Source: Lentisphaerota bacterium (GTDB lineage: Bacteria > Verrucomicrobiota > Kiritimatiellia > CAIQIC01 > Lenti-01). Taken from it: a DNA stretch of 44,099 nucleotides. Positions 12,028 to 43,017 of this stretch are shown in pieces; position 1 is the stretch's first letter, and each line of letters starts with the position of its first letter. Where the stretch lies: positions 1-44,099 of the forward strand of contig JAAZBB010000009.1 in the NCBI GenBank assembly GCA_012514035.1. The letters are read 5' to 3'. Below the pieces are notes generated by a model. That model searched no databases. It was not told where the DNA came from and saw nothing but the letters and a program-made list of their open reading frames with translations. The position numbers and the translations under genes were made by a program.

Positions 12028-13236
12028 ATGAAGACTTCCTCCGCTCTCCGCTTCCTTCCTCAAGCCAAACTTCCAGCCGGTTTCCGCGCAGCCGGCATCG
12101 TCGCCGGCCTCAAGGCCTCCGGCAAACCGGACATGGCCATGATTTTCTCCGATTCTGCCGCCGTGCTGGCCGGCACCTTCACCACCAACCAGGTCAAGGC
12201 CGCCGCCGTCCGGCTGGATGCCGCCCGCGTCGCGAACCTCGGCGCAGCCCATGGCATTGTCGTCAACAGCGGACAGGCCAACGCCTGCACCGGCAAGGCC
12301 GGATTGCGCGATGCCCGGGCCATGGCCGCCCATGCCGCCCGGCAGCTCGGGGTCGCCCCGGAAATGTTCCTCGTCTGCTCGACCGGCCGCATCGGCGTCC
12401 CCCTGCGCATGGATCTCATTCTCCCCGGCATAGAAAAACTGGCAGCGGCCCTTTCTCCATCCGGCGGTGAAAACGCCGCGCGCGGCATCATGACCACCGA
12501 TACCGTGCCCAAACGCCATACCACCACTTTCACCGTCAACGGCAAGACCTGCCGCCTCACCGGCATCGCCAAAGGTTCCGGCATGATCCAGCCCAACATG
12601 GCCACCATGCTCGCGTTCCTGCTCACCGATGCCGCCGTCGACCGCCGCGCCTTGCAGCGGGCCCTCAAGGCCGCTGTGGACAAGTCCTTCAACCGCATTT
12701 CGGTCGATGCCGATCAAAGCACGAACGACACCGCCCTGATGCTCGCCAACGGGCGCGCGGACAATACCCCTCTCCGTCCTGGGCACCCCGACTGGCCCGT
12801 GTTCGCCACCGCCCTGGAGGGCATTACCTTCCGCCTGGCCATGGACATGGTGCGCGACGGCGAAGGGGCGCAAAAGCTTGTGACGGTTCACGTCCGGGGC
12901 GCCCGCTCGGCCGCCGACGCGGAAGCCGCCGCCCGTTCTGTTGCCAATTCGTTCCTTGTCAAGACCTCCTGGGTCGGCACCTATCCCAACTGGGGCCGGG
13001 TCATGGATGCCCTCGGCTATTCTCCGGCCCGGATCCATGAAGACCGCGTGGAAATTTTCTACGACAAGCTCCGCGCCGTGCAGAACGGCCTCAAAGCCGG
13101 CGCCTCCATTACGCGCCTTTCCAAGGTTGTCGCGAAAAAGCAGTTCACCCTCACCATCGATCTGCACCTCGGCCGCCATGCCGCCACGGTCTATTCCTGT
13201 GATTGCACCGAGGAATATATCCGGATCAACAAATGA
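12028..13236 (+). CDS. argJ: Bifunctional ornithine acetyltransferase / N-acetylglutamate synthase
   Basis: 402-residue ArgJ. It recycles the acetyl group from N-acetylornithine to glutamate in arginine synthesis. The self-cleavage and nucleophile motif GSGMIQPNMATM places the catalytic threonine at Thr193, and the precursor is expected to autoprocess there into alpha and beta chains. Other marks are VNSGQANACTG, TTDTVPK, ISVDADQSTNDTAL, NSFLVKTSWVGTYPNWGR and the C-terminal CTEEYIRINK. The usual STGVIG reads STGRIG here, a mild oddity. GAAAGG precedes the ATG. It opens argJ-argB-argD, so the pathway is the cyclic one; whether it also makes N-acetylglutamate from acetyl-CoA cannot be told from sequence. 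Confidence 0.97.
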   Translation: MKTSSALRFLPQAKLPAGFRAAGIVAGLKASGKPDMAMIFSDSAAVLAGTFTTNQVKAAAVRLDAARVANLGAAHGIVVNSGQANACTGKAGLRDARAMAAHAARQLGVAPEMFLVCSTGRIGVPLRMDLILPGIEKLAAALSPSGGENAARGIMTTDTVPKRHTTTFTVNGKTCRLTGIAKGSGMIQPNMATMLAFLLTDAAVDRRALQRALKAAVDKSFNRISVDADQSTNDTALMLANGRADNTPLRPGHPDWPVFATALEGITFRLAMDMVRDGEGAQKLVTVHVRGARSAADAEAAARSVANSFLVKTSWVGTYPNWGRVMDALGYSPARIHEDRVEIFYDKLRAVQNGLKAGASITRLSKVVAKKQFTLTIDLHLGRHAATVYSCDCTEEYIRINK

Positions 13237-13290
13237 GCCGCGCTCCTCGGGCCCGGGCGCCGCGCCTTTTTTCTTTCCCCCGCGCGGATC

Positions 13291-14196
13291 GTGTCCGATA
13301 ATGCGCCGCTGAACATGGAAACCGCCATCCAGAAAGCCGGTGTCTTGCTCGAAGCCCTGCCGCACATCCAGCGGTTCCAGGGCGATACCGTCATCGTCAA
13401 ATTCGGTGGTTCCTCGATGGACAACCCTGAGGTCGTGCGCAGCATCCTGGAGGACGTTGCGTTCATGAGTTGCGTCGGCTTGCGCCCCGTCATCGTCCAC
13501 GGGGGCGGCAAGGCCATCAACAGCCGCCTGAAGAAACAGGGCCTCGCCGCCCATTTTGTCAGGGGCCTGCGCGTCACTGACGCCGATACCATGGCCATTG
13601 TCGAGCAGGTGCTCAACCGCGAAATCAACCCCGAACTCGTGATCATCCTCAATGGGTTCGGCGGCAAGGCCCGGGGCATCCACGGCGAAGATATCATCAC
13701 GGTCCGCAAGCACACCTCCGAAGACCCCGACACGGGCGCGACCCTCGACTGGGGGCTTGTGGGCGAAATCACGAATGTCGACGTGCTGCCCGTCAAGGCC
13801 TTCCTGGAATCCGGCATCACGCCGATCATCACCCCGCTGGGCGCGGATGCCGCGCGCCAGGTGTACAACATCAACGCCGATGCCGCCGCCGCGGGGCTGG
13901 CGGAGAAACTGCAGGCCCGGAAACTCGTGTTTCTCTCCGACGTACCCGGCCTGTTGGCCGATCCCAAGGATCGCGCCTCGCTCATGAGCACGCTCCGCCT
14001 CTCCGAGGTCGAGGACCTCATCGCGCGGGGCGTCATCGGCGGCGGCATGCTGCCCAAGATCAGCGGCGCGCTGAAGGCCCTCAAGGCCGGCGTCCGCAAA
14101 ACCCATATCATCGATGCGGCCCTGCCGCATTCCCTGCTGCTCGAACTATTCACCGACCAAGGCGTCGGCACGGAGATCGTCAACGATGCAACCTAG
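13291..14196 (+). CDS. argB: Acetylglutamate kinase
   Basis: 301-residue amino acid kinase that phosphorylates N-acetylglutamate, the second arginine step and often the feedback-controlled one. Motifs are VIVKFGGSSM, PVIVHGGGKAIN, VYNINADAAAAGLAEKL, VFLSDVPGLL and GGGMLPKI with a downstream DAALPHSLLLELFTDQG. The N-terminal helix before the first motif (about residues 1-30) resembles that of arginine-inhibited hexameric enzymes. The likely start is GTG at 13291; an ATG at 13315 is possible, and neither has a strong ribosome site. Its end overlaps argD by 11 bp, so the two are translationally coupled. Confidence 0.96.
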   Translation: MSDNAPLNMETAIQKAGVLLEALPHIQRFQGDTVIVKFGGSSMDNPEVVRSILEDVAFMSCVGLRPVIVHGGGKAINSRLKKQGLAAHFVRGLRVTDADTMAIVEQVLNREINPELVIILNGFGGKARGIHGEDIITVRKHTSEDPDTGATLDWGLVGEITNVDVLPVKAFLESGITPIITPLGADAARQVYNINADAAAAGLAEKLQARKLVFLSDVPGLLADPKDRASLMSTLRLSEVEDLIARGVIGGGMLPKISGALKALKAGVRKTHIIDAALPHSLLLELFTDQGVGTEIVNDAT

Positions 14197-15352
14197 CCCC
14201 AAGGAACTTCACGGCCAATTCGTCATGCCCACCTACGCGCCGGGGCTTACCCTCGTGCGCGGCGCGGGGGTTTCGGTCTGGGACGACACCGGCCGGGAAT
14301 ACCTCGACTTCATGGCCGGCATCGCCGTCAACAATCTCGGCCATTGCCACCCCGCCGTGGTTGACGCCATCCGGAAGCAGGCCGGCATCCTGATGCACTG
14401 CTCCAACCTCTTCCACAATGAACTGCAGCCCCGGCTCGCCCAGAAACTCTCGGGCATTTCCCTGGGCGGCAAAGTCTTTTTCTGCAACTCCGGGGCCGAA
14501 GCCAATGAATGCCTCTTCAAGCTCGCCCGCAAATGGGGCTCCCTGGACGGCCGGTTCGAGATCATCACCATGAAGAACTCGTTCCACGGCCGGACCCTCG
14601 CCACCATGACCGCCACCGGCCAGACCAAGTACCAAAAGGGATTTGAGCCCCTCATGCCCGGCTTCTCCCTGGCGGAGTTCAACAACCTCGATTCCGTGCG
14701 CGCGGCGCTCACGCCCGCCACCATCGCCATTCTGTGCGAGGCCGTGCAGGGCGAGGGCGGGATTGTTCCCGCCACGCCCGATTTCATGACCGGCCTGCGC
14801 GCCCTTTGCGACGAACGGAAAATCCTGCTTTTCTTCGATGAGGTCCAAGCCGGCATCGGCCGCACCGGCCAGTGGTTCGGCTATCAGCATTACGGCATCC
14901 GCCCCGATGGCATCTCCATGGCCAAGGCGCTCGGCGGGGGCTTTCCCATTGGCGCTGTCGCCGTCACGCCCGAACTTTCCGACGTCTTCCAGCCCGGCAA
15001 CCATGCCAGCACGTTCGGCGGCACGCCGCTCGCCTGCGCCGCCGCACTGGCCGTGCTGGACACCATCGAGCAGGAACACCTCCTCGACCACGTTCGGCAG
15101 ATGAGCGATCTGTTCCTGGCCGGCCTGCGCCAACTCGCGGGCCGGCATGCCAACATTCAATCCGTGCGCGGCCTGGGCCTGATGATCGGCCTGGTGCTCA
15201 ACATTCCCGCCAAGCCCATCGAAGCCAAGCTCCGTGAAAACGGCCTGCTGTGCATTGCCACCGGCGATTACGTCCTGCGTTTTGTTCCGCCGCTCATCGT
15301 GCAGCCCGCCCATATCGAGCAGGCCCTCCGCCTCATCGACCAATCGCTCTAG
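14186..15352 (+). CDS. argD: Acetylornithine aminotransferase
   Basis: 388-residue class III PLP aminotransferase. It converts N-acetylglutamate semialdehyde to N-acetylornithine, and may also act in lysine synthesis. It begins inside the end of argB at the ATG at 14186. Motifs are CNSGAEANECLFKLAR, FHGRTLATMTATGQ, EAVQGEGG, FFDEVQAGIGRTG and SMAKALGGGFPIGA, with the PLP lysine at Lys247. The length and motifs fit ArgD better than rocD or gabT. No hairpin with a T-run follows, so termination is probably Rho-dependent or the transcript continues. Confidence 0.95.
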   Translation: MQPSPKELHGQFVMPTYAPGLTLVRGAGVSVWDDTGREYLDFMAGIAVNNLGHCHPAVVDAIRKQAGILMHCSNLFHNELQPRLAQKLSGISLGGKVFFCNSGAEANECLFKLARKWGSLDGRFEIITMKNSFHGRTLATMTATGQTKYQKGFEPLMPGFSLAEFNNLDSVRAALTPATIAILCEAVQGEGGIVPATPDFMTGLRALCDERKILLFFDEVQAGIGRTGQWFGYQHYGIRPDGISMAKALGGGFPIGAVAVTPELSDVFQPGNHASTFGGTPLACAAALAVLDTIEQEHLLDHVRQMSDLFLAGLRQLAGRHANIQSVRGLGLMIGLVLNIPAKPIEAKLRENGLLCIATGDYVLRFVPPLIVQPAHIEQALRLIDQSL

Positions 15353-15594
15353 AACATGGGCGAGGTGGCGGTTGCCGCAGCCGTTGGGCGCGAAGCGGTC
15401 CGGGCCGTGTCCGGGCCCCGTTGCGGCCAGCCGCGGATTATCCCAATCTTCACGATGCTGGCGACAGTTGGCGCGGCGCCGATCGTAAAAGATCCATCCC
15501 GATTCCAGGACCTGGCGGGTCCGGAACGCCCGGCATGGTCCGTACCCCGCATCTGCACTTGATTCCGGGGAGGATTCGCAGTACCCGCTAGGGT

Positions 15595-16497
15595 GTGGGC
15601 ACAACGTTACACCGGCTTGCAGCAACGTGGGCGGGCAGCATTTGCCTGGCCTGCCACCCGGCCCCTGTCGCTTCCGCCGCCCCGCCCCCCGCAGAGGGGG
15701 TTGTTTTGGCGGAAGAGATACCCCCCGGCGCGCGCAACGGCTGGTCCAAGGAAATAAAGCTCAAACTGCTCAATACTGCCGTCATCGGCGGCATCGTGGG
15801 CTACGGCGTGATGTATTGGCATTATGGAGAAACATCCCCCCAGGTGGTGGATGAGGACTGGTTTGAACACGACAGTGCCCATGGCGGGGCCGACAAACTG
15901 GGACATGCCATCAGCACCTATTACGCCGTGATGGCCTACAGCTGGCTGTACGACCGCTGGGGATATGAACCCGCCCAATCCGCCCTCTACGGCGCCTTGT
16001 CCGCCTGGTCCACATTCTGCATGATCGAAGTGGGCGACGCCTTCAGCCGCCATGGCTTTTCCGTCGAGGATCTGGTCATGGACAGCGCCGGGGCCGTGGT
16101 GGGCTATCTGCACCGGCGGATCCCCGGTTTCCGCGCGCGGGTGGATTTCCGGGTGGAGTACTGGCCTTCCTACGGCGCGCGCAAGGGCACCGACATCGAT
16201 TATGTCAGCGACTATTCCGGCTATAAGTATCTGGTGGCCCTCAAGGGCGACGGGATCGAGGCCCTGTCCTCCACCTGGCTGCGCTTCTGCGAACTGCAAC
16301 TGGGCTATTACACCCGGGGATATCAGTCGCAGGACGAGGACTACTACGGAGATCCCTACCGGGTCCTCTACGCCGCGGTCGGGGTGAACCTCTCGCACAT
16401 CTTCCACAAGCACAACTGGAACAAGACCGCCGCCTTCCTCCACTACTACCAGGTGCCTTGCACCTATGCCCCGCTGGAATACAACCTCGACGATTGA
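15595..16497 (+). CDS. DUF2279 (YfiM-like) envelope protein
   Basis: 300-residue protein starting at GTG 15595, with a probable signal sequence (residues 1-28, ending ...PVASA). The core has DKLGHAISTYYAVMAYSWLY and FSVEDLVMDSAGAVVGYL, the pattern of the DUF2279/YfiM family. That family has an N-terminal Asp-Lys-x-x-H motif and small-residue membrane helices. The C-terminal half is rich in aromatic residues and reads like an outer-membrane strand region (YLVALKGDGIEAL; LQLGYYTRGYQS; AAVGVNLSHIF). The function is unknown. It lies 242 bp after argD on the same strand and converges with glnN. An alternative start could shift the signal peptide slightly. Confidence 0.75.
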   Translation: MGTTLHRLAATWAGSICLACHPAPVASAAPPPAEGVVLAEEIPPGARNGWSKEIKLKLLNTAVIGGIVGYGVMYWHYGETSPQVVDEDWFEHDSAHGGADKLGHAISTYYAVMAYSWLYDRWGYEPAQSALYGALSAWSTFCMIEVGDAFSRHGFSVEDLVMDSAGAVVGYLHRRIPGFRARVDFRVEYWPSYGARKGTDIDYVSDYSGYKYLVALKGDGIEALSSTWLRFCELQLGYYTRGYQSQDEDYYGDPYRVLYAAVGVNLSHIFHKHNWNKTAAFLHYYQVPCTYAPLEYNLDD

Positions 16498-16540
16498 GCC
16501 CGCCCACGCCCCCCCCTATCCCCGGGCGATTCTTGTCCTG

Positions 16541-18715
<2,175 letters not shown>

Positions 18716-18903
18716 GCTGATCTCGCTTTCCCGGGACCGCGCGCACAGTCCACCGCCCTGCTTGTACTGCAATATCGCCCCGAAAACAGCATAAAAGCGC
18801 GGTTTCATCCCGGGCGCCGCCCCGTCCCCCGCCCCCGGCCCCGGCCAGCGGCCCCCGTTCTTCCGGCTTCATTCTGCTTCCGGCCTGCGATAAACTGCTC
18901 CCT

Positions 18904-19659
18904 ATGACCTCGCCTTTCGCCCGCCTGGAACTCCTCCTCGGCCCCGCAGCCCTCCCGCGCCTGGCCCGCGCCCGCGTCCTGATCGCGGGCCTTGGCGCCG
19001 TCGGCGCCGCCGCCGCCGAATCCCTCGCCCGCTCCGCCGTCGGACATCTCGTCCTGGTCGACTTCGACGAAATCCGCGCCGCCAACCTCAATCGCCATCC
19101 CTTCGCCTTCCATTCCACCCTCGGAGAAAAAAAGGCCGCCGCCGCCGCCCGCTTCCTGCGCGATATCAACCCCGACGCCGACATCACCCCCCTCGCCCTC
19201 TTCCTCGACGCCCGGACCGCGCCCCAACTCCTCGCCGAACATCCGTGCGATGTCCTGATCGATGCCATTGATGCGCTCAATCCCAAGACCGACCTGCTGC
19301 TGACCGCCCAGCAGGCCCAGGTGCCGTTCATTCTCACCTGCCTGGGCGCCGCCCGGCGGATCGATCCAACCCGCTTCGTCGCCGCCGACCTCGCCGCCTC
19401 CCATACCTGCCCCCTCGCCCGGCTCCTGCGCAAACGACTCGCCAAGCGGGGCGCGGCCCCCGGCATCCGCTGCATCTTCTCCACCGAACCGCCCGGCGCA
19501 TCCGCCGAACCGGTCATGCCCGCCGCCGACTTCTACGTCCGCGGCCGGCTCCGCCCGCCGCTGGGCAGCCTTCACTGCGTCACCGCCGCCGCCGGCCTCG
19601 CCGCCGCCCGCGAAACCCTCCGCTTCCTCCTGGAGCCCCCATGCCCTACGCCCAATTAA
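18904..19659 (+). CDS. ThiF/MoeB superfamily protein, TcdA-like
   Basis: 251-residue E1-like adenylating enzyme. The nucleotide loop GLGAVGAAAAESLARSAVGH is followed by LVLVDFDEIRAANLNRH, where the Asp and Asn-x-Asn-Arg match TcdA (CsdL), the enzyme that cyclises t6A37 of tRNA. DVLIDAIDALNPKTDLL and a late GSLHCVTAAAGLAAAR block fit the same family. No Cys-x-x-Cys zinc pairs of the MoeB/ThiF type are seen, which favours TcdA. The ATG at 18904 follows an AT-rich GATAAACT that may be a -10 region. It is upstream of a pseudouridine synthase, so two RNA-modification genes are side by side, with the palindrome cluster between them. Confidence 0.8.
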   Translation: MTSPFARLELLLGPAALPRLARARVLIAGLGAVGAAAAESLARSAVGHLVLVDFDEIRAANLNRHPFAFHSTLGEKKAAAAARFLRDINPDADITPLALFLDARTAPQLLAEHPCDVLIDAIDALNPKTDLLLTAQQAQVPFILTCLGAARRIDPTRFVAADLAASHTCPLARLLRKRLAKRGAAPGIRCIFSTEPPGASAEPVMPAADFYVRGRLRPPLGSLHCVTAAAGLAAARETLRFLLEPPCPTPN

Positions 19660-19673
19660 CTGCCGACGAAATT

Positions 19674-19776
19674 TTTTTCCATTGTGTGGAAAAATCCCGA
19701 AACTTTTTTCCATTGTGTGGAAAAAATCGCCCTTTTTTTCCACACCGTGGAAAACTTTTTTCCACACCCTGGAAAA
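19674..19776. repeat. Cluster of four TTTTCCA-N-TGGAAAA palindromes
   Basis: Four inverted repeats in about 100 bp, each of the form T-run CCA, 3-5 base centre, TGG A-run: 19674-19694 and 19704-19726 (centre TTGTG), 19736-19754 (TTTTCCACACCGTGGAAAA) and 19758-19776 (centre CACCC). They lie between the tcdA-like stop (19659) and the rluA-like start (19823). The third is base-for-base the same as the copy at 39698-39716. Confidence 0.95.
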
Positions 19777-37011: not shown

Positions 37012-38745
37012 ATGAAACGCCAACTGCGAGCGCTGGTCCTGGCCCTCTGCTGGCTGCCCGCCATGGCCCGCGCCGGGGCCGGACCGCTGAACACGCTGGT
37101 GGTCGTTAACGGTGCCAGCCGCGATTCCCGCGCCTTGGGAATGTATTACCTGGAACGCCACGGCATTCCCGAAACTCATCTGTGCACCCTCAAGACCGAC
37201 CCGCGGTCGCCCTCCATTAACCAGCGCTTGTTCGAGCGCGAAATCCGCTTGCCGATCCTGGCCCACCTGGCCGACCGCCAGTTGGCGGGCCAAATCGATT
37301 TCGTCGTCCTGTGCATGGACATGCCCTCCCGGGTCGAAAACAGCAACGGCATCACAGCGGCACTGTTCTACGGCTACAAGCCGTATCCCCGCGATCCGAA
37401 ATGCAATCTCGCCTCGAATTCCGTCAACCAGTACTTCGGCACCGAACGGGCCTATGCCGCCACCGCAGGCTGGAACAAGACCAACATGCCGATTTTCTTC
37501 CTCCTGACTGCCCCCAGCCTCGAAACCGCCAAGCAGGTCGTGGACCGCGCCGTGGAGTCCACCGCCTCTTTTCCCGCGGGCATCTTCGGCCTCTATGGCT
37601 CCGGCGATTCCGCGCGCAACATCCGCCACCGCACCTATTCCATCGTGGCCCGCCAGTTTGAACTCTTTGGCCGGGGCGAGTGGATCGACGTCAACCCCTC
37701 GGCCAGCCCGGTTCCCCCGCGGCCCGTGCTCGGATACCTGACCGGGCTGGCGGCATTGCCGGCCGCCTTGGACAACCTCGTCTTGGCGCCCGGCGCCATC
37801 GCCGACCATCTGACCTCCTGCGCCGGCATGATTCCGGATCCCTGCGACAATCAAAGCAGCGTCTGGGACTGGCTGCGCCTGGGGGCCGTCGCCTCCTACG
37901 GCACCGTCAGCGAACCCTGTGCCTACGAAGTCAAGTTTCCCGTGCCCATGCTGTTTTTCTGGTATGCCCGCGGCTTTACCGCCGGCGAAGCCCTGGCGAT
38001 GTCGGTGCGCAATCCCTATCAGGGCATCTGGGTCGGGGATCCCCTCGCCGCTCCGTTTGCCGCGCCCCCGGTTGTCCGCATCACGGCCCCCGCCTACAAT
38101 GCCGAAGTCGACGGCGATGTCCCGCTGCAAATTTCCGTGGCCGCCCACGACCGCGGCGCCCCGCCAATCTTTCTCGACCTCTATCTCGATGGCCGGCATC
38201 ACGCCCCCGTCACACGCCCCTTCGCCCCGGTCGGCAACGAAATCGCCGCGCACATCGGTACCAACCGCTTCGCCTACACCATCGCCCCCGGCGAAGACCT
38301 GTTTGCCGCCGTGGCCGGTCTGGCCTGGGCCGTGAATTACCACGGTGGCGGTCAGCTCACCGCCAAGTCGCATGCCGATCGTCTCGAAATCACGACCCGG
38401 GCCCCTCTGGACGAAGATGGCCAGCCGCTGCCGTTTTCCGTCACCACCGAGCCGGGCTTCGCCCCTGCCCTTTATATTGGCGGCACCGCCGGCACTGACC
38501 GGCTCTTGATTGAGGATGGCATCGGCCGGGCCGCGGCCGCATTCCATCTGGGTACCACCCGCACCTGGGAAATCGAATATCCGCTGGATCTGTCCGCGCT
38601 GGAACCCGGCCCCCATGTGCTCAGCGTGGTCGCCCGCGACGGCACCGCCATGGAATGCCAAGGCCAGGCCGATCTTCCCTTCCGCATCCCACCCCGCCCG
38701 GCGTCCGCCGGCGGAGCCGATCGTGACAACCGTCCGGGCGGATAA
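37012..38745 (+). CDS. TIGR03790-family secreted protein
   Basis: 577-residue exported protein of unknown function. The start ATG at 37012 opens a signal peptide (RALVLALCWLPAMARA). The first domain (LNTLVVVNGASRDSRALGMY, YLERHGIPETHLCTLKTDPR, IDFVVLCMDMPSRVENSNGI) has the layout I associate with TIGR03790. After about residue 350 (VVRITAPAYNAEVDGDVPLQ) come one or two beta-sandwich, Ig-like modules ending in GPHVLSVVARDG. No catalytic motif is certain; the NSNGITAALFYGYK stretch and several His/Asp residues could be an active site. The next gene begins inside its last 23 bases. Confidence 0.65.
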   Translation: MKRQLRALVLALCWLPAMARAGAGPLNTLVVVNGASRDSRALGMYYLERHGIPETHLCTLKTDPRSPSINQRLFEREIRLPILAHLADRQLAGQIDFVVLCMDMPSRVENSNGITAALFYGYKPYPRDPKCNLASNSVNQYFGTERAYAATAGWNKTNMPIFFLLTAPSLETAKQVVDRAVESTASFPAGIFGLYGSGDSARNIRHRTYSIVARQFELFGRGEWIDVNPSASPVPPRPVLGYLTGLAALPAALDNLVLAPGAIADHLTSCAGMIPDPCDNQSSVWDWLRLGAVASYGTVSEPCAYEVKFPVPMLFFWYARGFTAGEALAMSVRNPYQGIWVGDPLAAPFAAPPVVRITAPAYNAEVDGDVPLQISVAAHDRGAPPIFLDLYLDGRHHAPVTRPFAPVGNEIAAHIGTNRFAYTIAPGEDLFAAVAGLAWAVNYHGGGQLTAKSHADRLEITTRAPLDEDGQPLPFSVTTEPGFAPALYIGGTAGTDRLLIEDGIGRAAAAFHLGTTRTWEIEYPLDLSALEPGPHVLSVVARDGTAMECQGQADLPFRIPPRPASAGGADRDNRPGG

Positions 38746-39685
38746 CCTCCAGCTGGACGCTTTCGCGGACGGTTTGCGTCGCACCGGCGACGCCCGCCCT
38801 TTTGATTTCTGCTCCCTGAGCGAAGGCTTTCTCTATCCCGAACGCGCCCGGCCGGGCGTGCTGGACTATTTCTTCTTCGCCTGCGCCCACCAATTCGGCT
38901 TCTGGACGCTGGCGGGCAACCGTTGGGCCGGCCCCATGGTCGCGCCCCTCGACGGCCGGAACCTGAAAGGCTCCGACTTTCTCTGGCGCGCCTGCACCCG
39001 GGCCTGGCAGCGGAACCCGGACAGCTTCGTCCCGATCGCCCTGGACGCGATGACTGATGCCGGACTCAATACCCTCTTTCAAAGCGATGCCGACATCAAT
39101 CCGCTGCCGATGTGGAGGGACCATCTGGCGCTGACCCGCGGCTACGCCCGCTGGTTCGTCGCGCGGGCCCTCACCCCCACGGACGTGCTCCGCTGCGCGC
39201 AGGCCGCTCCCAAGCCCCTGGCGGCCCTGCTGGCCGCGCTCGCGGAAATCCCGGGCTACGCGGAAGATCCCTTGCAGAAAAAAGCCATGCTGCTGGCCAT
39301 CGTGCTCGAAAACCGCCCCGAGCATTTCCTGCAGGTCACCGATCCGGAATCGGCCGTGCCGATCATCGACTATCACCTGCAGCGCAGTGCGCTGCGCACC
39401 GGGCTGGTGCGCGTGGAGAACCCCGCCCTGCTCGCGAAACTGGAATCCCGCGTAACCGTTACGGCGGCAGAAGAAGGGGCGGTTCGGGCCGCAACCTATG
39501 ACGCCATCCAGCAGCTCATGGCCCGCTCCGGCCTCTCCGCCGCGGCCGTGGACTGGTTTTTCTTCCGGAACCGCACCCGCTGCCCGGAAACGACGGAGCC
39601 CGACTGCTCCGCCTGCCCCGTGCAGGCCATCTGCGCCAAGGCCACCCGCCTCTTCCAGCCCGTCTTCCGCACCACCGCCTACTAA
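38723..39685 (+). CDS. Qng1 (DUF2419)-like protein with four-cysteine C-terminus
   Basis: 320-residue protein beginning at GTG 38723 (GGAG 7 bases upstream), overlapping the previous gene by 23 bp. The pattern DYFFFACAHQFGFWTL, then LNTLFQSDADINPLPMWRDH, and IIDYHLQRSALRTGLV followed by EEGAVRAATYDAIQQL matches, block for block, what I recall of Qng1/DUF2419. That family is the queuosine-nucleoside glycosylase used in queuine salvage, with a HhH-GPD-like fold. The end carries Cys287-x7-Cys295-x2-Cys298-x5-Cys304, close to the endonuclease III Fe-S loop (C-x6-C-x2-C-x5-C) and not part of Qng1 as I know it. The substrate is therefore uncertain: queuosine nucleotides or a damaged base. Confidence 0.6.
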   Translation: MTTVRADNLQLDAFADGLRRTGDARPFDFCSLSEGFLYPERARPGVLDYFFFACAHQFGFWTLAGNRWAGPMVAPLDGRNLKGSDFLWRACTRAWQRNPDSFVPIALDAMTDAGLNTLFQSDADINPLPMWRDHLALTRGYARWFVARALTPTDVLRCAQAAPKPLAALLAALAEIPGYAEDPLQKKAMLLAIVLENRPEHFLQVTDPESAVPIIDYHLQRSALRTGLVRVENPALLAKLESRVTVTAAEEGAVRAATYDAIQQLMARSGLSAAAVDWFFFRNRTRCPETTEPDCSACPVQAICAKATRLFQPVFRTTAY

Positions 39686-39697
39686 GCCGCCCCGGAG

Positions 39698-39776
39698 TTT
39701 TCCACACCGTGGAAAAAATCACCGTTTATTTCCACGGAATGGAAAAATATTTCGGCGGATTTCCACCCAATGGAAA
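39698..39776. repeat. Cluster of three TTTCCA-N-TGGAAA palindromes
   Basis: 39698-39716 (TTTTCCACACCGTGGAAAA), 39729-39745 (centre CGGAA) and 39760-39776 (centre CCCAA), in about 80 bp between convergent gene ends. Same design as the cluster at 19674-19776, and the first copy is identical to one of those. Confidence 0.95.
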
Positions 39777-39883: not shown

Positions 39884-41494
39884 CTAGCGGGCGAGGCTGA
39901 TCCAGACGACGCGAAAGCCGTCGAGGATCTGCTGGGCTTCCTGCAGGTAGAGGCGGGCGGCGTCGCGGTGGTTCACCACCACGAGGAGGTCGTGCGACAG
40001 CACCGAGGTGTTGTACCAGTTGAACGAGCCGTCGATCACGATCTGTTCGTCAATGACGCATTGCTTGGAATGGACCGGCGAATACGGCACGGGACGGTCG
40101 TGAACGCCGTACACCAGCGCAATGGCGATGCCGGCTTCCTGCAGTCGCCGCACCGCCGGCAGTAACGGGCGCTGGAGCTCCTCGGGCATGCTGCGCTCCC
40201 GGGCGGGATCGCCCTCCCAGGCTAGATGGCCGTTGAGGATGATCCGCACGTAGACGCCGCGATTCTTCGCGGCAATCAAAGCATCTACTACGCTCTCGCC
40301 ATGCTCTCCGCGCAGCTCCCCGATCAGAAACAGGCACAGGTGGATCGAATGCCGGGCGCGCTGAATCTCCGCCAGAATGGCGTGGTGGGGCCGATAGTAC
40401 TTGCCGTTGAGCATGGCGGTCCGGCCAAAGGTGTAGAGCAGATTGAACGGACTCATCGGGTCCACCCCGTAGCGCCGGATGACCCCGCCGCGCACGGACT
40501 GGAAAATGTTGTCGAGCAGCCGGCACACGCCGAAGGACCGGAACGTCATGCCCGACTCCCAGTTGCTGCCCCAGCGGTCGAAGGTGATGTTGAAGGAGCC
40601 GACGATGGCGTCCTCGTCGCCGAAAATAATGAACTTGTTGTGCATGTCGGTGGCCACTTCGGCCAGCGGATCGCGGGTGGTGCACACCTCGCCGAGGAGC
40701 TCGATGCCCGAACGCTTCAGGGCCAGATAGTTCGAGCTGTTGGTCAGCGTCATCTTGCGCCAGTCCACGATCACCTGCACGGGCACGCCGCTGCGGTGGG
40801 CATGGGTCAGATGCCGGATGAAATCGCCGTCATCCACGCAGTCCACGCAGACCTTGATGCCGCAGGGCCGCGCGGGGTCGGTTTGCCGGCGCCAGATCAT
40901 GGTGTCGATCAGGTCGTGAATGTAGCGCTTGGGGTGATACGGATGCCAGGCCTGGCCCTTGGTGAACTTGGGAACCAGGCGGAGCGACTCGACATGGTGG
41001 TTCATCCAGTCCACGTCGCGCTGCAGCTGGTCCGCGTCCACCTCGTGTGTCCGGTACGGATTGGGCGTGGCCCACTCTTCCGTGATATGCCGCCGGACCT
41101 CGCCTTCGCTGCCGAATTCATGACCGTCCATGAAAATGTATTCCAGCCGCGACGGAATCGACCGCTCGTGCAGATGCAGAATGTAGGAGAACTTGACGCA
41201 GGTGACGCGGCCCTGGTGCAGCGCCTGCGGATGGATGAACAGATCGCGCGTTTCGCGCCAGTGCCGGTTCCAGTCGCCGCCGAGCGGATCCGTGTGCGCC
41301 AGATACTGCTCAAAGGTGCCATCCTCGTGGAAAACCTTGAGCACGACCTTGAGATTCATCCCGGCCCCCCAGTCCACCCGGAAGCGGATGCGGCCCCAGC
41401 GCAGATAGAACAGTTCCCGAAACTCGTTGCGGCGGGGATACGGCGGACTCATCCAGGCTTCGGTCGGCGCAGCGTACTGCTCGGCGTATTCCAT
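39884..41494 (-). CDS. Phospholipase D-family protein with N-terminal domain
   Basis: 536-residue cytoplasmic-type protein (no signal sequence seen). Residues 1-175 form an unrecognised, beta-rich domain (RIRFRVDWGAGMNLKVVLKV). Two PLD half-domains follow. The first HKD motif is HNKFIIFGD (residues 285-293), with the Asp one place later than usual, then VGSFN. The second is HSKQCVID (475-482) with DGSFNWYN, fully canonical. PLD enzymes hydrolyse or transfer phosphodiester bonds in lipids or nucleic acids; the substrate is unknown. AGGAGG precedes the ATG at 41494. The gene starts 11 bp after the EEP gene and is surely co-transcribed with it. Confidence 0.85.
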   Translation of the reverse strand: MEYAEQYAAPTEAWMSPPYPRRNEFRELFYLRWGRIRFRVDWGAGMNLKVVLKVFHEDGTFEQYLAHTDPLGGDWNRHWRETRDLFIHPQALHQGRVTCVKFSYILHLHERSIPSRLEYIFMDGHEFGSEGEVRRHITEEWATPNPYRTHEVDADQLQRDVDWMNHHVESLRLVPKFTKGQAWHPYHPKRYIHDLIDTMIWRRQTDPARPCGIKVCVDCVDDGDFIRHLTHAHRSGVPVQVIVDWRKMTLTNSSNYLALKRSGIELLGEVCTTRDPLAEVATDMHNKFIIFGDEDAIVGSFNITFDRWGSNWESGMTFRSFGVCRLLDNIFQSVRGGVIRRYGVDPMSPFNLLYTFGRTAMLNGKYYRPHHAILAEIQRARHSIHLCLFLIGELRGEHGESVVDALIAAKNRGVYVRIILNGHLAWEGDPARERSMPEELQRPLLPAVRRLQEAGIAIALVYGVHDRPVPYSPVHSKQCVIDEQIVIDGSFNWYNTSVLSHDLLVVVNHRDAARLYLQEAQQILDGFRVVWISLAR

Positions 41495-41505
41495 GGCTTC
41501 CCCTC

Positions 41506-43017
41506 CTAGCGCAACTCGAACTCCACCAGATAGCCCGTGTGATCGGAGACGCGCCCGTAACAGGCGGCGGTAAACAGTTCCTCGGCGTGAATGGCCCGCA
41601 GGGCGCTGCCGTTCCGAAGCCACAGGTAGTCGATGCGGCGGTCCTGTTCCAGCAGTTGCACGGGATCGCCGCTGCGGGCGCGGAACACCTGCTGGAACTC
41701 GGCCGGCCGCAGAATCTTCAGGTACTGGTCCTCGAACTCGCCTGCGTCCACGATCTGCCGGTAGGCCTCGCTGCCGGCCGCAATGTTGAAGTCGCCGCAC
41801 AGCAGGGTGGCGGCCACTTCCGGCGCCTGCTTGGCCTCCGCCCAGCGTTGCAGGCGGGCATACTGGGGATAGAACCCGGCGCTGGGCCAGCTCAGGTGTG
41901 CGCTGAACACGTTGATCAGCCCCATGTAGGGCACCCGCACCTGGGCCATGACCACCTTCCGCGCGTGAATGTCGAACGGATCCTGGCTGTCGGACACATA
42001 GCCCGAGTCGGTGAGGGCGAAGGGATGGCGGCTGAGGATGGCCAGTCCCTCCCGGTAGCGTTCGAATCCCAGATGGGCCCAGTCCGTCCGCAGATGATAC
42101 GGCTGGGGCAGGTGATCATTGATGATGCGCGCGGCGTTGGACGACCAGTCCCCGGCGCCGCCGTTCCAGTTCTCCCCCACCTCTTGCAGGCAGACCAGAT
42201 CGATCTTCCGTTCCTGGATGGCCTGGGCCACCCGCTGAAATTTCTGCTGCTGATCCTCCTCCTGATAGGTGTGTAAATTGAGCGTCAGGACTTTCAGCGT
42301 GCCGCGGCGGGCGCAATAGTTCCGACCGCCGCAGTTGTCCCAGACGACCTGGTGGGCCGTCCGGCACTCAATGGCATATTCCACCCGGTAGGCATGCTGG
42401 ACCGGAATGCGGCCCGTCCACACCTCCCAGCCGTAGCGGTTCGGGTTGCGCGCATTGCTGCCCACGCTCAAATCCCAGTGGTTGCGCCGGAAATAGGCCG
42501 GCGCCTGGTGCGACGTGGCCCAGCCGTCCGTCGTCCAGTGAATCACCACCGCCTCCGGCGCCACGGACTGCCGGACCGCCACCTCCACCGGCACCGCCAG
42601 AATGCCCGGCGCCAGCTCCGGATCGTAGCCGACGACCTGCACCGGTTCCGGCCCGAACCCGATCACGCCGGAATCGGCATCGGACCGGTAGTTCTGCCCG
42701 AACCGGCTGTCCCAGTGGCGAATTCCGTCGCGCTCCAGGCAGGCCGCAAACTGGATGTTGCCCGGAATTGCCGAATCCATGGTCAGGGGCACCCCCACCT
42801 CGGCGGTCCATAATTCCTCCTCGCCGCCCACCCCGCAGCGGTAGCCCGCCGCCGACACCTGCCAGACCCCATCCTCTCCGCACCAGTGAATGTCCACCCG
42901 CTTGCCATAGTCCCCCGCCCCCACTCGCACCGCGAACAGCATCTCCTGGAACGTGCCGTGCACGGTCCGGGAGATGATGTTCTTGACGTAGATCAACTGG
43001 ATCGGCGGGTTCATCAT
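41506..43017 (-). CDS. Two CBM21-like modules fused to an EEP hydrolase
   Basis: 503-residue protein with no signal peptide. Residues about 20-110 and 140-235 are two similar beta-sandwich modules, with RVDIHWCGEDGVWQVSAAGY and WDSRFGQNY in the first, and VVIHWTTDGWATSH and WDNCGGRNY in the second. The WDN-x-G-x-NY ending is the mark of CBM21 (glycogen/starch-binding) modules. Residues 240-503 are an endonuclease/exonuclease/phosphatase domain with the full active site: Asn247, LQE (Glu279), SAHLSWP (His374), GDFN (408-411), RIDY (Asp463) and SDH (491-493). The start is uncertain: ATG 43017 is taken, TTG 43038 or ATG 43014 are possible. It pairs with the PLD gene downstream. Confidence 0.8.
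   Translation of the reverse strand: MMNPPIQLIYVKNIISRTVHGTFQEMLFAVRVGAGDYGKRVDIHWCGEDGVWQVSAAGYRCGVGGEEELWTAEVGVPLTMDSAIPGNIQFAACLERDGIRHWDSRFGQNYRSDADSGVIGFGPEPVQVVGYDPELAPGILAVPVEVAVRQSVAPEAVVIHWTTDGWATSHQAPAYFRRNHWDLSVGSNARNPNRYGWEVWTGRIPVQHAYRVEYAIECRTAHQVVWDNCGGRNYCARRGTLKVLTLNLHTYQEEDQQQKFQRVAQAIQERKIDLVCLQEVGENWNGGAGDWSSNAARIINDHLPQPYHLRTDWAHLGFERYREGLAILSRHPFALTDSGYVSDSQDPFDIHARKVVMAQVRVPYMGLINVFSAHLSWPSAGFYPQYARLQRWAEAKQAPEVAATLLCGDFNIAAGSEAYRQIVDAGEFEDQYLKILRPAEFQQVFRARSGDPVQLLEQDRRIDYLWLRNGSALRAIHAEELFTAACYGRVSDHTGYLVEFELR

Follow-up and report, generated by a model that had tools for sequence, protein, structure and literature searches.

The window analysed here (the whole stretch of DNA, 44,099 nucleotides) carries two neighbouring genes on its minus strand, on which all features of the pair lie. 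Gene 1 (41506..43017), which begins with ATG and is kept in 21 genomes, encodes a protein of 503 amino acids with a predicted CBM21-CBM21-EEP architecture. The first CBM21 module, recognised by a family profile and by hhalign, spans residues 21-111 (42685..42957) and contains the motif WDSRFGQNY, the second, with the motif WDNCGGRNY, covers about residues 141-237 (42307..42597; Pfam CBM_21 match at residues 148-234), and the EEP catalytic domain, recognised by Pfam and classed as MapP-type by profile, alignment and tree, occupies residues 238-503 (41509..42306). An AGGAGG ribosome-binding site (41502..41507) overlaps the stop codon of gene 1, and 11 bp separate this stop from the start of gene 2 (39884..41494), whose product of 536 amino acids was assigned to the PLD family by Pfam PLDc_2 and by alignment of its homologues. 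Gene 2 comprises an N-terminal domain (residues 1-145, 41060..41494) that is beta-rich in the secondary structure predicted by AlphaFold2, and two HKD motifs, HNKFIIFGDEDAIVGSFN at residues 285-302 (40589..40642) and HSKQCVIDEQIVIDGSFN at residues 475-492 (40019..40072), both read from the translation and the homologue alignment. Judged by eye, no signal peptide is evident at the N-terminus of either protein, which fits intracellular glycogen as the site of both products. A preliminary description of the locus had given this domain composition, the spacing with its AGGAGG site and the lack of signal peptides, and in all these points it agrees with our analysis.

The second module of gene 1 scores 36.6 bits against Pfam CBM_21 (cut-off 28.9). 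The first stays under the Pfam threshold in the window protein alone; searched against the PDB as a family profile, it retrieved the protein phosphatase 1 (PP1) glycogen-targeting subunits 3B, 3C and 3A, which are the PDB entries nearest to it, together with glucoamylase A (best E-value 6.8e-10). The two modules align with each other at 94% probability in hhalign, Pfam finds two CBM_21 stretches in the homologue of the most divergent genome carrying the pair (G143, which belongs to another class of the same phylum), and 17/20 gene 1 homologues have a CBM_21 match at E ≤ 0.01. Among these homologues the first motif keeps W102 and D103 without exception, and the second keeps N233; W226 and D227 are nearly invariant. 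Since Foldseek gave exclusively EEP structures among the best 50 matches listed for gene 1, the assignment rests on sequence profiles, by which both modules are CBM21. The preliminary description had itself named modules unlike CBMs, or homologues that are never adjacent, as observations that would speak against it; neither was made, the modules being CBM-like by sequence profile and, as described below, the genes adjacent. Small proteins with CBM21 sequences, a signal-peptide-like start and no recognised catalytic domain were also seen in two relatives without the gene pair, G459 and G056 (L093:2270-3118, L094, L095:2378-3268 and L097).

The catalytic domain of gene 1 matches Pfam Exo_endo_phos with 62.8 bits (cut-off 24.5), and N247, E279, H374, D409, N411, D463, D492 and H493, which are invariant in 20 EEP homologues, are likely the catalytic residues. 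Its nearest solved structure is 3TEB, both by profile (E-value 2.4e-34, followed among EEP entries by 4RUW with 1.9e-7) and by fold among the best 50 Foldseek matches listed. In plasmid records, the nearest EEP relatives sit in maltose operons, in which a GH65 or alpha-glucosidase gene is combined with PTS IIBC and EEP genes, and one of these relatives is annotated as maltose 6'-phosphate phosphatase. We take them to be MapP, reportedly the maltose 6'-phosphate phosphatase of Enterococcus faecalis on which Mokhtari and co-workers published in 2013. The EEP domains of the gene pair were compared with MapP-type proteins, YbhP of E. coli, ExoIII, YafD, rhizobial YbhP-like proteins and the other EEPs of the window genome. 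In the resulting tree they form one clade with the MapP-type proteins (support 99/95); a grouping with YbhP is rejected by the AU test (p 0.002), while one with ExoIII is not (p 0.13), with long branches involved. Against a profile of the cassette EEPs, MapP-type proteins reach 93-113 bits, none of the other EEPs tested exceeds 43 bits and E. coli ExoIII has 0.7 bits; the MapP profile gives the reverse pattern, favouring the cassette EEPs over other EEPs. Motifs of the types LNxHxxxEE-, SHxG[FY]xxYxEG- and HxxW are common to the cassette and MapP-type proteins in the alignment and are missing from YbhP and ExoIII. Judged from sequence comparison, gene 1 thus groups with the sugar phosphatase MapP and not with nuclease-type or YbhP-type EEPs, and the nuclease-like character that the preliminary description had given to this domain has to be revised. 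At about 26% identity between the cassette EEPs and MapP, a change of substrate is possible; EEP sequences moreover cannot separate phosphomonoesterase from phosphodiesterase activity.

Gene 2 matches Pfam PLDc_2 in two stretches (124.7 bits), and H285, K287, H475 and K477 do not vary among 21 homologues; it is a member of the PLD superfamily with two intact HKD motifs. Its AlphaFold2 model (pLDDT 85) resembles PLD-superfamily structures generally, without a clear closest function. The scores against the NCBIfam equivalogs for cardiolipin synthase (29.6 bits, cut-off 290) and for DrmC of DISARM (40.9 bits, cut-off 133) are below threshold, similarity to ClsB of E. coli and to rhizobial PLDs is marginal (best E-value 0.026), and the PLD region is weakly similar to the C-terminal domain of polyphosphate kinase. 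The beta-rich N-terminal 145 residues are conserved and gave no convincing Pfam or PDB match, in line with the unrecognised domain of the preliminary description; 4/20 homologues show a weak Cupin_3 match here. A third CBM21 module was considered for this region and dismissed (hhalign probability 0.2-0.4%, no PDB match).

The two genes form a true cassette with obligate pairing. Carriers amount to 21 genomes in the phylum of the window, namely 20/346 of its class and the outlier G143, and in 21/21 both genes share a strand and the EEP gene immediately precedes the PLD gene, about 4 to 141 bp apart (one EEP gene copy is incomplete at a contig end). When gene 1 and gene 2 were used as separate queries against 241 genomes of the phylum, they retrieved an identical set of nine genomes. 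No further carriers were found around G143, either among 236 genomes of its class or among 273 of its order. Both reading frames are conserved at 44-89% identity over the 21 genomes, which argues against a chance arrangement, and gene 2 is conserved more than gene 1 (56-57% versus 44% identity to the G143 copies). Flanking genes vary outside the genus; what is conserved is thus the pair as such.

In G143 the cassette lies directly downstream of a GH13 gene, in an array on one strand of L033 that comprises GlgE (17046-19007), a TreS-maltokinase (13684-17040), GH13 (12048-13595), EEP and PLD. This glycogen-operon neighbourhood links the cassette to alpha-glucan, and the link is suggestive but no proof, as it comes from one genome and about 209 bp separate the GH13 gene from the EEP gene; of about a dozen neighbourhoods, this one alone contains alpha-glucan genes. 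Co-occurrence did not yield a discriminating signal: a GT5 glycogen synthase is present in 19/19 carriers tested and is nearly universal, with 24/26 non-carriers having it as well, and GlgE was found in just 2/19 carriers (0/26 non-carriers). Inspection by eye of the genes called around the 21 cassette loci revealed no PTS gene. Beside the cassette, the window contains two overlapping genes without Pfam match (37012-38745 and 38723-39685, both on the plus strand), the second of which encodes a product ending in the cysteine-rich stretch CPETTEPDCSACPVQAIC; in G095 and G451, similar proteins are seen close to the cassette, judged by eye. In G095, and in this relative only, a locus close to the cassette (L026:12449-15953) shows CRISPR-array-like short tandem repeats, a Cas2-like protein and a possible Cas4-Cas1 fusion, again recognised by eye. 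We also observed perfect palindromes, TTTCCANNNNNTGGAAA, clustered in threes or fours at intervals of about 22 or 30 bp (39699-39776 and 19676-19775 in the window). Seven of them occur in the window (0 expected) and 193 in the whole genome, against 0 for a control pattern, and the clusters may serve as arrays for protein binding or represent repeat elements.

We propose that gene 1 acts on phosphate attached to alpha-glucan, as a cytoplasmic glycogen phosphatase, and put the probability of this reading at roughly 0.5. The two CBM21 modules would dock the enzyme on intracellular glycogen, where the MapP-type EEP domain would hydrolyse phosphate monoesters carried by glucosyl units, either of the polymer or of its chains, probably at C6 by analogy with maltose-6'-phosphate. 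The co-translated gene 2 product, a putative PLD-type phosphodiesterase or phosphotransferase, would work together with gene 1, most plausibly by opening phosphodiester-linked groups on the same polymer before the phosphatase finishes. This is the weakest step of the scheme, and we regard such a role of gene 2 as doubtful. Substrate, order of steps and the whole role of the PLD protein are inferred. The complete picture, that of the first glycogen phosphatase from bacteria, of EEP fold and convergent with laforin, targeted by CBM21 and paired with a PLD acting on phosphodiester-linked groups, is accordingly put forward as a tentative possibility. Our literature search found no paper on regulated glycogen phosphate in these bacteria and none joining CBM21 to exonuclease/phosphatase-type proteins in bacteria.

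Gene 1 could instead be a phosphatase of small molecules such as maltose-1-phosphate or phosphorylated maltodextrins that is parked on glycogen through its CBM21 modules, the polymer itself not being the substrate. Its nearest enzymes by sequence are indeed disaccharide phosphatases of MapP type, and the G143 neighbours GlgE and TreS-maltokinase handle maltose-1-phosphate; yet the scarcity of GlgE leaves most carriers without a known use of maltose-1-phosphate, and an enzyme with a soluble substrate would have little need of two polymer-binding modules in tandem, so that we consider this rather unlikely. Less probable is a pair of glycogen-bound phosphodiesterases that regulates glycogen metabolism without dephosphorylating the glucan, with targets on or near the granule such as nucleotide sugars, polyphosphate, or protein or lipid modifications. 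Phosphodiester chemistry is known for both the EEP and the PLD fold, and the faint resemblance of the PLD region to polyphosphate kinase would suit such a role, but the EEP group nearest to gene 1 is one of sugar phosphatases.

The adjacency of EEP and PLD genes in ybhP-clsB-ybhN of E. coli raises the question of a phospholipid system, in which the PLD protein would make or cleave a phospholipid with help from the EEP enzyme. Clusters of PLD, lysylphosphatidylglycerol (LPG) synthase and EEP genes in Sinorhizobium and Rhizobium point in the same direction (two rhizobial plasmids, L075:1442-4738 and L077:416-3714, carry PLD, a lysylphosphatidylglycerol-synthase-like gene and EEP in an arrangement resembling ybhP-clsB-ybhN). 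However, tree, AU test and PLD comparison all fail to support this proposal, the cassette EEP lying outside the YbhP group and the PLD protein being at best marginally similar to its counterparts; no YbhN-like gene was seen adjoining the cassette, and the CBM21 modules would be left unexplained, which makes a phospholipid role improbable. No more credit can be given to a nuclease or defence pair. The storage-polysaccharide function that the preliminary description had offered as one option is favoured by the MapP kinship, the CBM21 modules and the operon of G143; its other option, a sensor/effector defence pair, found no support. Both superfamilies, EEP and HKD-type PLD, do include nucleases, TDP2 and PLD3/PLD4 are among the structural matches, PADLOC reports weak matches to DrmC, and the distribution within the class is patchy (20/346). 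Yet the PADLOC matches, DrmC among them, are all generic to PLD proteins, the equivalog cut-offs are missed, the neighbours vary with no consistent defence genes among them, the phage, plasmid and viral collections searched contain no close relative of gene 2, and neither MapP-type kinship nor CBM21 modules suit a nuclease.

If gene 1 is a glycogen phosphatase, some bacteria would carry covalent phosphate on their glycogen and actively remove it, and the role of this phosphate would become testable in simple organisms. A bacterial enzyme of a different fold doing the job of laforin would represent convergent evolution and would suggest that glycogen phosphorylation poses a general problem and is no peculiarity of eukaryotes, and a family now labelled 'endonuclease/exonuclease/phosphatase' would gain a functional annotation together with a concrete assay. 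To our knowledge, the removal of phosphate from glycogen is so far known only from unrelated animal and plant enzymes, among them laforin, which is lost in Lafora disease. Laforin has been described as the sole glycogen phosphatase known (PMC12834914), and all alpha-glucan phosphatases described so far are dual-specificity phosphatases (PMC13011383).

Among known systems, MapP shares with the cassette the EEP catalytic domain, a supported clade, the active-site motifs and an alpha-1,4-glucoside context, but it is a lone domain encoded in a maltose PTS operon, whereas in the cassette two CBM21 modules precede the EEP domain, a PLD protein accompanies it and no PTS operon is recognised around it. 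The mannosyl-6-phosphatase BT3783 (4C1R) also has the EEP fold and is a solved sugar 6-phosphatase among the fold matches of gene 1; in contrast to the proposed enzyme its substrate is mannose and not glucose, no CBM21 was noted, and the match is weaker than that of 3TEB. With ybhP-clsB-ybhN the cassette has the adjoining EEP and PLD genes in common, while the E. coli EEP belongs to another clade, its PLD protein is marginally similar, CBM21 is lacking there and no YbhN-like neighbour was seen here. In PPP1R3A/B/C, as predicted for gene 1, CBM21 targets a phosphatase to glycogen, but these proteins recruit the protein phosphatase as a separate subunit, whereas the catalytic domain of gene 1 is fused to the modules and has another fold. 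In overall design gene 1 resembles laforin and SEX4, which likewise combine a carbohydrate-binding module with a phosphatase domain, are cytoplasmic or plastidial and act on a storage glucan, as we infer for gene 1. They unite a dual-specificity phosphatase with CBM20 or another starch-binding module, and gene 1 an EEP domain with CBM21. Gene 1 thus has modules of starch-binding type fused to a catalytic domain, these being two CBM21 in place of the CBM20 of laforin, and it lacks a dual-specificity phosphatase domain with a Cx5R loop, its catalytic domain being EEP. Because the catalytic domain differs, gene 1 falls outside the laforin/SEX4 family; by analogy, it may be their functional counterpart built on an unrelated fold.
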